Below the pieces are notes generated by a model. The model had not been told where the DNA came from, did not search any database, and was given only the letters and a program-made list of their open reading frames with translations. A DNA stretch of 64,000 bases from the NCBI RefSeq assembly GCF_001956915.1, contig NZ_MLJO01000007.1, positions 1 to 64,000 on the forward strand, given 5' to 3'. Positions 43,945 through 47,680 of this stretch are shown in pieces (the stretch's first letter is position 1; the number at the start of each line of letters is the position of its first letter). The position numbers were made by a program, and so were the translations under genes. Origin of the DNA: Intrasporangium flavum (GTDB taxonomy: Bacteria; Actinomycetota; Actinomycetes; Actinomycetales; Dermatophilaceae).

Positions 43945-45471
43945 TCAGAACGCGAAGCGCTCGACGTGGATGTGGGTGTTCGGGACGCCGGCCCGTCGGG
44001 CGGCCTCGGCGGCGGACTGCGCCCACGCGTCGGGACCGCAGATGTAGACGTCGCCGTCGCAGACGTCGGGCACGAGACTCCGGATCGCCACGTGGTCCTC
44101 CTCGCTCGCTGGTGCGGCCTGCCAGGAGGTGCGGCCGCTCGGCCGGTGCCCGGGCAGGTAGACGACGCGCACGCCCCGCTCCCGCGCCAGCTCGTCCAGC
44201 TCGTGCCGGAACACGAAGTCGTCCTCGCTCGAGCCGCGGTAGATCAGGACGGCCTCGCCCGGGGCGTAGTCGAGGTCCTCCATCAGGGCACGCACCGGGG
44301 TGATGCCGATCCCCGACGCCATGGCCGTGACCCTGCCACCGTGCCCCGACGCGCTGGTGAACCGCCCGTACGGGCCCTCGAAGAGGACGGGCGTCCCGGG
44401 TCGCAGGCCACGCAGGCGCCGGCTGTTGGTGCCGACCTCCTTGGCCGTGATGCGGAGGGTGTCGGCCTGCGGGGCAGCCGAGAGGGCGTACGGGTTGCCG
44501 CGCGTCCAGCCGCGTCCGTCGCGGAAGCGCCAGATGAAGAACTGGCCAGCCTGGGTGCCGAGCCGCTCGAGGTCACGGCCCCGCAGGTGCACGGACACGT
44601 TGCCCGGCGCGTCCTCGACGACCCGGTCGACGACGACGCGGTGGCGCGCCGAGCGGAGCAGGGGCACGAGGAGCCGAAAGACGAGGAGGCAGCCGACGGC
44701 GAGGGCGTACAGCGTCACGAGGAGCACCTGGGCCCACTGCGGACGGAACTCGCTGCCGGTCCAGATCATGTGCGGCACGACGAGGGCGATGCCGAGGAGC
44801 GTGTAGAGGTGGAGCAGGTGCCAGGTGTGGTAGCGCAGGCGCCGGCGGGCGGCCCGGCTGGAGGTGACGCCCACCATGACCAGCAGCACCGTGCCGAGCG
44901 CGGCCAGCATCATGCCGCGCCAGTCGGCGACCATCCACCAGAGCGACCCGAGCACGGTCCGGCCGTCGCGGACCATGTAGCCGAGCATGAGCAGGACGAT
45001 GTGGGCGAGCATGAGGTTCAGCGACGTGAAACCCGTCCACCGGTGGATCCGCACGAGCCGGTCACGGCCGAAGGAGCGCTCGATCCACGGCAGGCGTGCC
45101 ATGAGCACGACCTGCACGATCATCAGGTCGGCCGACACCAGCCCGGCGAGCTTGCCCGGGTAGCTGAGCGGGCCCTCGGGCTTGGCGAACATCTTGTCGA
45201 GCGACCCGTCGGCGACCCAGAGGTAGACGAAGAACAGCAGGCTCGCCCAGAAGGCGACGGTGCACACGGCACGGACCACGGCCGAGGCCCGGTCGGGGGT
45301 GGCCCGGTCGGGGGCGGCCCGGTCGGGGGTGGCCCGGTCGGGGGTGGCCCGGTCGGGGGTGGCCCGGTCGGGGGTTGCCCGGCCGGGCGGCGAGAGCGTC
45401 GGTGCGGGAGGAGGGTCTGCCAGCACCTGCTGGTCCCGATCCGGGCCGGTCGCGAAAGGACTTATCGTCAT
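43945..45471 (-). CDS. Ferric-reductase-like transmembrane flavocytochrome
   Basis: A 508-residue membrane oxidoreductase. After an N-terminal repeat (TPDRA)n linker come ~6 TM helices with paired haem-ligand His candidates (RIHRWTGF, LAHIVLL, YHTWHLLHLYTLL), an FAD domain (RGNPYALSAAP) and an NAD(P) domain (ASGIGITPVRALMED, CGPDAWAQS). It should carry electrons from NAD(P)H across the membrane. ATG at 45471 has GAGGTGG upstream; the divergent trpS leader is 146 bp away. Confidence 0.88.
   Translation of the reverse strand: MTISPFATGPDRDQQVLADPPPAPTLSPPGRATPDRATPDRATPDRATPDRAAPDRATPDRASAVVRAVCTVAFWASLLFFVYLWVADGSLDKMFAKPEGPLSYPGKLAGLVSADLMIVQVVLMARLPWIERSFGRDRLVRIHRWTGFTSLNLMLAHIVLLMLGYMVRDGRTVLGSLWWMVADWRGMMLAALGTVLLVMVGVTSSRAARRRLRYHTWHLLHLYTLLGIALVVPHMIWTGSEFRPQWAQVLLVTLYALAVGCLLVFRLLVPLLRSARHRVVVDRVVEDAPGNVSVHLRGRDLERLGTQAGQFFIWRFRDGRGWTRGNPYALSAAPQADTLRITAKEVGTNSRRLRGLRPGTPVLFEGPYGRFTSASGHGGRVTAMASGIGITPVRALMEDLDYAPGEAVLIYRGSSEDDFVFRHELDELARERGVRVVYLPGHRPSGRTSWQAAPASEEDHVAIRSLVPDVCDGDVYICGPDAWAQSAAEAARRAGVPNTHIHVERFAF
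45286..45375. repeat. Six 15-bp tandem repeats in the ferric-reductase-like gene
   Basis: Six units of GGCCCGGTCGGGGGT (one with a final C), read on the minus strand as TPDRA. Whole-codon units, so copy-number change alters only the length of a cytoplasmic linker before TM1. Confidence 0.92.
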
Positions 45472-45605
45472 TGACAGTTCCACCTCACTGTGAGAGGCCC
45501 GGGACGCTCCGTGGCCTGGGGACACGCTCGTGCAGGCGCGCCCGGGGCGTCGACGTTCTGTTCATAGAGTTCTGAGCGGGATGCGACGAAGGCGGCGACG
45601 AGGCG

Positions 45606-45611
45606 TACCCT
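45606..45611 (+). promoter_or_regulatory. -10 box (TACCCT) of the trpS leader transcript
   Basis: TACCCT ends 6 nt before the leader peptide's ATG at 45618, which places transcription start at the leader ATG itself. Confidence 0.5.
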
Positions 45612-45617
45612 GACCAC

Positions 45618-45665
45618 ATGAGTTCGACCGTCGCACCGATCCGCGCGCGGTGGCTGCCCAGCTGA
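45618..45665 (+). CDS. Trp leader peptide of the trpS attenuator
   Basis: A 15-codon reading frame, MSSTVAPIRARWLPS, with a single Trp codon at 45651-45653 (position 12). It starts immediately after a -10 box, so it should be translated from a leaderless mRNA. A terminator-type hairpin begins 26 nt after its stop, and a tryptophanyl-tRNA synthetase gene follows. This is the layout of ribosome-mediated transcription attenuation, known for trp and trpS genes in Streptomyces. Confidence 0.7.
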   Translation: MSSTVAPIRARWLPS

Positions 45666-45690
45666 GGCGGCCTGTCGAACCAACCCATCC

Positions 45691-45713
45691 AGAGCCGCCC
45701 ACGGGCGGCTCTT
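45691..45713 (+). terminator. Attenuator hairpin before trpS
   Basis: AGAGCCGCC and GGCGGCTCT pair (9-bp stem, 4-nt loop, two more pairs possible) followed by TTGCC. It lies between the Trp leader peptide and the trpS start and would be the terminator arm. A competing antiterminator should involve the 45650-45690 stretch, but I could not confirm one by eye. Confidence 0.65.
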
Positions 45714-45773
45714 GCCATGTGCGTCAGGCGTGGACGGCGTGCGGCCCGTGGGCCTTCCACGAGGAGCACCCGC

Positions 45774-46922
<1,149 letters not shown>

Positions 46923-46931
46923 CCCGCCACG

Positions 46932-47060
46932 GGAAGTGCGCCGTGGCGGAGTTGGCGCGCTCGGACTGGCCCCAACACCGCTGGAACTGCGCCATGGCGG
47001 ACTTCCCGCGGCCGAGCAGGCCCTGACGCCGCCGGAACTGCGCCATGGCGGACTTCGCGC
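46932..47060. repeat. 51-bp tandem repeat (2.5 units) with CCATGG-centred palindromes after trpS
   Basis: Copies start at 46932, 46983 and 47034, exactly 51 bp apart. The core GGAACTGCGCCATGGCGGAC is a quasi-palindrome (first copy has GTGG at the centre). It fills the gap between trpS and the nucleotidyltransferase gene. The period is a whole number of codons, but no start signal serves a gene here. Confidence 0.8.
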
Positions 47061-47104
47061 AGTGGTGACCGCCCGATCCGGCCGCATGCGCTCGCCACCG
47101 GACC

Positions 47105-47110
47105 TAGCCT
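47105..47110 (+). promoter_or_regulatory. -10 box (TAGCCT) of leaderless nucleotidyltransferase gene
   Basis: TAGCCT ends 6 nt before ATG 47117. No Shine-Dalgarno sequence lies between. Confidence 0.45.
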
Positions 47111-47116
47111 GAAGGC

Positions 47117-47680
47117 ATGGACGGCGGCGACGACCGACGCGCCACCGAGGCCCGTCAGCTCGCGGCGATCGGCGAGCTCGGCGCGGCCCTCGACGCGTCC
47201 GGCTTCGAGCACTGGCTCTTCGGAGGCTGGGGCGTCGACTTCCTCGTCGGCCGCCGGACGCGTCCGCACGACGACGTCGACCTCGCGGTCTGGCTGCGCG
47301 ACCGGCCTCGCCTGCACGGCTGCCTCGTCGCCGCGGGGTGGGAGCACACTCCCCTGGCCGGCGAGGTGGTCGGCACGAGGTACGCGCGCGAGGGGGTGCG
47401 GCTCGAGCTCACGTTCCTCGTCGACGGCGACGAGGGCGAGGTCTTCATCCCCTTCGAGCCCGAGCCGGCACTGTGGAGCGCGGAGCCCTTCGGGGACGCG
47501 ACGAGCACCCTCGACGGCGTCCGCGCCCGCACCGTCCCGCTCGCCCGAATGCTCGCCGACAAGGAGAACGCGCGCGACGACCCCGCCGGTGGCGACAAGG
47601 ACCGCGCGGACCTCGAGGCCCTCCGCGCCGCGGCGGGCCGACGTGATCGCCAGCGGGGTCCCGACACCGTGCCGGGGTGA
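47117..47680 (+). CDS. Nucleotidyltransferase, aminoglycoside-2''-adenylyltransferase-like
   Basis: A 187-residue Pol-beta-type nucleotidyltransferase. The catalytic block is FGGWGVDFLVGRRTRPHDDVDLAVW, carrying the Gly-Trp-Gly and the metal-binding Asp pair (about residues 35-58), and LELTFLVDG supplies the third acidic position region. It resembles AadB/LinA-type enzymes that adenylylate antibiotics, but chromosomal relatives in soil actinobacteria are often of unknown substrate. It ends 6 bp from convergent plsC. Confidence 0.78.
   Translation: MDGGDDRRATEARQLAAIGELGAALDASGFEHWLFGGWGVDFLVGRRTRPHDDVDLAVWLRDRPRLHGCLVAAGWEHTPLAGEVVGTRYAREGVRLELTFLVDGDEGEVFIPFEPEPALWSAEPFGDATSTLDGVRARTVPLARMLADKENARDDPAGGDKDRADLEALRAAAGRRDRQRGPDTVPG

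Follow-up and report, generated by a model that had tools for sequence, protein, structure and literature searches.

In the window, as we call the whole stretch of 64,000 nucleotides that was analysed here, a trpS gene is preceded by a short leader in which an open reading frame (ORF) containing a single Trp codon is followed by a GC-rich hairpin (Table 1). The trpS product scores 227.9 bits against NCBIfam trpS (cut-off 176.75), its closest solved relatives lead with 1yi8 and 2a4m, the latter named TrpRS II, and a housekeeping-type trpS, 33% identical to the window enzyme, lies elsewhere in the same genome (G000:C4:32836-33810). Taken together, the TrpRS II structures nearest to it and this second gene class the window enzyme as TrpRS II-like, that is, as auxiliary. 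On the other side of the leader, the divergent ferric-reductase-like gene (43945-45525, minus strand) carries in its N-terminal part a repeated ATPDR motif, encoded by 6.8 copies of a 15-base tandem repeat (45286-45387). Right behind trpS, at 46932-47060, are 2.5 copies of a 51-base tandem unit, GGAACTGCGCCATGGCGGACTTC..., whose 23-base core, when up to 2 mismatches are allowed, has 6 copies in the genome, as against 0 for a reversed control. The downstream gene, 47117-47680, has a Pfam Aminoglyc_resit match (aminoglycoside adenylyltransferase-like, E 9e-12).

Table 1. Features of the trpS leader and gene, in positions of the window.
Feature	Position	Strand	Remark
Predicted -10 box TACCCT, leaderless promoter	45606..45611	+	TAnnnT also present in all 29 of the best family relatives
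Leader ORF MSSTVAPIRARWLPS, predicted leaderless	45618..45665	+	ORF conserved among relatives; 47/48 bases as in L008
Segment 0, GTTCGAC	45622..45628	+	5' arm of outer helix, codons 2-4
Codon 11, CGG (Arg)	45648..45650	+	TGG (first Trp codon) in close relatives
Codon 12, remaining Trp codon	45651..45653	+	Predicted stall codon
Segment 1, GGCTGCC	45652..45658	+	Starts inside the Trp codon and spans the next codons
Segment 2, GGCGGCC	45666..45672	+	Abuts the stop codon on its 3' side
Segment 0', GTCGAAC	45674..45680	+	3' arm of outer helix, just past segment 2
Segment 3, AGAGCCGCC	45691..45699	+	Putative terminator, 5' arm; its GCCGCC is the partner of segment 2
Partner of segment 5, GCCCACGGGC	45697..45706	+	End of segment 3, loop and start of segment 4
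Segment 4, GGCGGCTCT	45704..45712	+	Putative terminator, 3' arm
Segment 5, GCCCGTGGGC	45744..45753	+	Complementary to terminator loop and flanks
trpS Shine-Dalgarno (SD) sequence, GGAG	45763..45766	+	Mostly paired with the segment 5 region (local fold)
trpS, TrpRS II-like, 382 aa	45774..46922	+	Candidate start ATG at 45774

The ATG at 45618 lies 6 nt past TACCCT and opens a 15-codon ORF with one Trp codon, whose stop codon is at 45663-45665 and behind which trpS follows; all of these elements stand where a preliminary description of this DNA had placed them. TAnnnT occurs twice on the + strand between 45500 and 45790, at 45565 and as TACCCT itself, and a scan for consensus promoters upstream of trpS found none. 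The hairpin (45691-45712) consists of a 9-bp stem, AGAGCCGCC/GGCGGCTCT, and a CACG loop. The GC-rich stem of the preliminary description is therefore real, but its nature as a terminator is less so: no T-run follows, a terminator scan (stem plus T-run) had no match there, and of the textbook intrinsic terminator, made of a GC-rich stem and a U-run, only the stem is present. With the T-run absent, the hairpin is called a terminator below in a putative sense. In many family loci a tail resembling TCGCATGT or TGTCATGT, free of any U-run, recurs right behind the stem; in the window it falls at about 45713-45721. When Rfam covariance models were run over 44500-47500 at E up to 1, nothing reached its gathering score, the lone match being an L31 leader within trpS (E 0.71, under the gathering score). 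The whole leader folds barely better than its shuffles (z -1.72; 9/200 shuffles equal or better), so that this single sequence would by itself prove little.

What, then, is added by the relatives? A leaderless-type ORF with Trp codons is found in all 30 trpS upstream regions formed by the window and its 29 best relatives within the family (which includes Terrabacter, the best named relatives), and in each of them TAnnnT lies 6-7 nt 5' of the start codon. The same ORF scan matches 1/600 dinucleotide shuffles of these 30 regions, 0/30 of their reverse strands and 0/696 other 480-base stretches from the same loci, controls which already oppose a chance origin. Similar scans found the leader in 38/69 of loci L043-L111 (loci among the best 80 listed) and in 16/42 of loci L112-L153, four of which repeat ones of the former range; L032-L042, L115 and L121 were dropped from the set of loci as duplicates. 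The ORF scan is not exhaustive, since a covariance model (R1), built from 40/82 loci chosen by hand, adds L099, whose -10 box deviates from TAnnnT. Within the window's genome, R1 has the window element as its sole clear match (E 6.2e-14) and yields no convincing second element, the next match (E 0.0136) being the opposite strand of the same place. Across the family it matches 62/186 genomes at E <=0.01, many of them close to this threshold. In the window's genome, a loose Trp-Trp/GGCGGCC pattern is not above control (34 and 34 versus 48 and 45), and the one match to TIGR00564 (trpE), at a genome completeness of 81%, is far under its cut-off.

Segments 1 to 4 of the window permit alternative 1:2, 2:3 or 3:4 pairing, and the antiterminator and terminator helices are mutually exclusive, by sequence as well as by covariation. 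In 500 permutations of segment 2 across 69 distinct loci, neither the 1:2 nor the 2:3 score of the real arrangement was reached (0/500); a locus' own partner beats the swapped ones in 58/79 loci for 1:2 and in 52/79 for 2:3, with no gain in the remaining loci. Such permutations disregard descent, for which thinning by TrpRS identity is a partial remedy: in sets of 43, 14 (under 75% identity) and 8 representatives, the 1:2 score was reached by 0, 0 and 3 of 400 permutations, and the 2:3 score by 0, 0 and 1. Examples of pairs that covary in 2:3 are GGCGGC/GCCGCC, GACGGC/GCCGTC, GAGCGGCC/GGCCGTTC and GCAGCC/GGCTGC, while L006 has one broken 1:2 pair. On A2, a hand-chosen alignment of 16 close rows in which nearly all pairs are invariant, RNAalifold recovers 1:2 and 3:4. 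The distance from the last Trp codon to the core of segment 2 is 15-20 nt in 75/82 loci and 24 nt in L088; in 6/82 loci the script failed to match a core, the sequence there being GGCA in five and AGCT in one. As for the stop codon, it lies 9, 12, 15, 21 or 24 nt past the last Trp codon, which in some loci is past segment 2.

Some loci were left out of particular tests. This applies to L020 and L030, for which the wrong stem had been picked (R1 row set, helix, outer-helix shuffle, segment 5, SD-blocking and thinning tests), to L088, with no core (1:2/2:3, outer-helix, SD-blocking and thinning tests), to L009, L011 and L029, with a wrong trpS start or no spacer (SD-blocking, segment 5 own-shuffle and thinning tests), and to L062, L064 and L085 (SD-blocking test). 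The segment 5 and thinning tests also lose loci in which the spacer is too short or no start was found, the trpS starts being set by a script rule and some of them possibly wrong.

The conserved Trp-codon ORF, the covarying 1:2 and 2:3 helices and the near-constant spacing between Trp codon and segment 2 support the ribosome-mediated Trp attenuation proposed in the preliminary description. We put at roughly 85% the probability that the element controls the auxiliary trpS as a ribosome-mediated transcription attenuator, with charged tRNA-Trp as the signal that it senses. Besides its exclusive helices, it has a short leader ORF with the codon of the regulated amino acid, here a single one, placed so that a ribosome stalled on it would mask segment 1 and leave segment 2 free. 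Judging from the -10 spacing, transcription would start at or beside the ATG. With ample Trp-tRNA, the ribosome would arrive at the stop codon and cover segment 2, upon which 3:4 would form and transcription would stop. With scarce Trp-tRNA, it would halt at codon 12 instead; given a ribosome cover of about 12 nt past the translated codon, the figure in the excerpt of PMC4833913 used here, its edge would fall at 45665, masking segment 1. Segment 2, which begins at 45666, would then be free to form 2:3, and RNA polymerase would continue into trpS. Forced to 3:4 or to 2:3, the window folds have about equal energies (-51.6 versus -50.4 kcal/mol). The unconstrained equilibrium fold favours 3:4 even with segment 2 free, and the probability of 2:3 is 0.004, so that 2:3 would have to be chosen kinetically, as it forms during transcription. 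In other attenuators, too, the choice of structure is made during transcription.

The unconstrained fold of the window also pairs codons 2-4 (GTTCGAC) with GTCGAAC, located after segment 2. Over 80 distinct loci, this outer helix 0:0' has a mean score of 15.6, against 12.2 (sd 0.29) for permuted partners, a value reached in 0/1000 permutations, and the thinned sets of 43, 14 and 8 representatives gave 0/400 at every level. When compared with shuffles of its own partner, it reaches p <0.05 in 33/78 loci (0.015 in the window), with three control stretches at 2, 7 and 10 of 78. RNAalifold on the close alignment A2 (16 rows) does not recover 0:0', which appears once per-locus partner strands are used. 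By these measures the outer helix is conserved and covarying, and its predicted function is that of a default: in an untranslated leader, 0:0' and 1:2 would together hold segment 2 and 3:4 could form, an arrangement that is also the unconstrained fold.

Segment 5, downstream of the putative terminator, behaves in a comparable manner. Its pairing with the loop and segment 4 has a mean of 21.6 over 73 loci, versus 17.1 (sd 0.34), and was reached by 0/150 permutations, or by 0, 0 and 1 of 400 on the thinned sets (43, 14 and 8). Against own shuffles, p is <=0.01 in 17/73 loci, two control stretches giving 1/73 and 2/72. Pairs that are not palindromic, such as GCCTCGTCAC/GTGACGGGGC (L026) and GCCTTCGGGCGGC/GTCGCCTGAGGGC (L051), speak against palindromes as the sole cause. 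After read-through, segment 5 would probably capture the freed loop and segment 4, whereby the leader would stay open; in the window, the forced 2:3 fold becomes less favourable once the compatible part of loop-4:5 is included (-47.7 versus -50.4).

The same segment invites another explanation, in which control is chiefly translational: segment 5 would hide the trpS ribosome site and 3:4 would be no terminator. This would fit the absence of a U-run, and also the window fold, where segment 5 is part of a hairpin at 45736-45776 (-19.7 kcal/mol) that pairs most of the SD sequence. With segment 5 blocked, SD openness goes up by more than 0.1 in 26/69 loci, as against 7/69 with other blocks, and the pairing between the spacer and the SD region is above all 150 permutations over 73 loci. 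However, SD pairing fades on thinning, being reached by 8, 31 and 45 of 400 permutations with 43, 14 and 8 representatives, and some related Streptomyces hairpins do have T-rich tails, for example TTTCG in L066; mainly translational control is in our opinion unlikely. Sequestration of the SD had also been considered as a conserved feature in its own right, and was rejected for this weakening on thinning.

Transcription attenuation being the preferred reading, a broader proposal can be attached to it, although only tentatively and at clearly less than even odds. Actinobacterial trpS attenuators would be five-segment, two-stage switches, in which 0:0' sets an untranslated leader to OFF by default, while segment 5 fixes the ON shape and opens the trpS ribosome site; the switch in the window would be a version reduced to one Trp codon, on which a stalled ribosome would reach exactly as far as segment 2. 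Helix 0:0' and segment 5 may be a new part, as neither was found described in the literature searched, which did not include two texts of 2010, one by Vecchione and Sello and the other by Lopatovskaya et al. That both covary suggests a role for these attenuators beyond the choice between terminator and antiterminator.

The logic of 1:2, 2:3 and 3:4 and a stop codon near segment 2 are shared with the trp operon attenuator of Escherichia coli. The E. coli trp leader differs from that of the window by its ribosome site, its two Trp codons and the U-rich nature of its terminator. In Streptomyces coelicolor, an auxiliary, antibiotic-resistant TrpRS gene was reportedly found by Vecchione and Sello in 2010 to be under ribosome-mediated attenuation; going by the title of their work, this system is like the window in joining an auxiliary trpS to a ribosome-mediated attenuator. 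For actinobacterial trp operons, a leader peptide was described together with an antiterminator and a terminator sharing gGCC-rGCy-GGCC triples, and a candidate attenuator was placed 5' of trpS2 in S. avermitilis (Seliverstov et al., 2005, PMC1262725). As far as the excerpt of that paper used here goes, the Trp codons of these trp operon leaders number two or three and the terminators are of the poly-U type, whereas a single Trp codon, the lack of poly-U and the extra segments 0, 0' and 5 mark the window leader. TrpL2, found before trpS in S. lividans TK24, is reported to be leaderless and to have a single Trp, two hairpins and no uridine-rich stretch (PMC8079986, in the excerpt consulted); from its sequence, MMTRTCTQLWRAA, its stop codon lies 12 nt past the start of the Trp codon. 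The window is like it in having a one-Trp leader, predicted to be leaderless, before trpS, in this stop codon distance, in its two hairpins and in the lack of a uridine-rich stretch, and unlike it in its peptide, while an outer helix or a segment past the terminator goes unmentioned in that excerpt. Since TrpL2 also does without a uridine-rich stretch, the window element is filed under the actinobacterial rather than the textbook kind: it is most probably a well-conserved attenuator of known actinobacterial type, whose single-Trp leader is derived.

The single Trp codon had been called unusual in the preliminary description. One Trp codon is what the leader has, at codon 12, but the excerpt of PMC8079986 takes away its singularity, because TrpL2 provides a precedent for a leaderless, single-Trp leader before trpS. 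Adjacent Trp-Trp is present in 28/30 leaders, the exceptions being the window and L028, and peptides with one Trp make up 3/89 of those counted: the window, L090 (Kitasatospora paracochleata) and L152. A quick tree, built on 71 TrpRS proteins of the family, places the window in a clade of 19 rows (SH-aLRT 99), in which all 18 other leaders have two adjacent Trp codons, and 1/48 bases of the window ORF differs from L008, giving CGG for TGG at codon 11. On these two comparisons, the single Trp is a derived state, which would have arisen when one codon of a Trp-Trp pair was lost; the codon kept is the one nearest segment 2.

Could the missing codon be an artefact? The CGG rests on one assembly, 81% complete and in 58 contigs, and an assembly or sequencing error in a leader that is truly Trp-Trp would involve only one base; the 186 family genomes searched contain no second genome of the window's genus. 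Against this, the T-to-C change would be an ordinary transition, and one-Trp leaders occur elsewhere, which makes an error improbable. If the loss is genuine, the attenuator might have decayed, no longer responding to Trp and keeping its hairpin as a constant brake, in line with the Trp-Trp retained by every one of its clade mates and with the rarity of one-Trp peptides. Yet everything else is intact, from the 47/48 ORF bases shared with L008 to segments 0-5, the retained codon is the one held at a near-constant distance from segment 2, and a single Trp also occurs in L090, L152 and S. lividans TrpL2 (PMC8079986, in the excerpt consulted), so that decay appears quite improbable. As for an ORF and a hairpin having met by chance in GC-rich DNA, the little that the lone sequence shows (z -1.72) would allow it, but the ORF scan controls and the helix permutation tests, on full and thinned sets, leave it a negligible probability. 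With its derived single-Trp leader, the window offers a natural one-codon experiment, in which the two-Trp switch of close relatives is down to one; as the rest of the leader is nearly unchanged, how many stall codons there are and where they stand become separable in attenuation.

Genes of the window's trpS type are found in 74 family genomes, and in 36 of these a strong housekeeping trpS is present as well (best TIGR00233 E below 1e-85). The leader is present in 36/36 of these two-trpS genomes, window included, as against 11/37 of those in which the window type is the only copy found (37/38 examined, with G024 left out of the leader count), the latter group containing incomplete genomes such as G051 (81%), G121 (75%) and G129 (74%). 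The difference has a Fisher p of 2.6e-11, for counts that were assembled by hand and are not corrected for descent. The association with two-trpS genomes suggests that the enzyme behind this leader is auxiliary and called on when needed. The leader is not bound strictly to one enzyme type, since a Trp-Trp leader is also found before trpS genes below the P0001 search cut-off, in G084, G085, G086, G136, G151 and G181 (L189-L194), where the enzyme differs and the leader may have been retained or transferred. At the start of the window's trpS itself, a 9-base repeat, ACCAGCATG, at 45768-45801 gives rise to three in-frame ATG codons (MTSMTSMTST).
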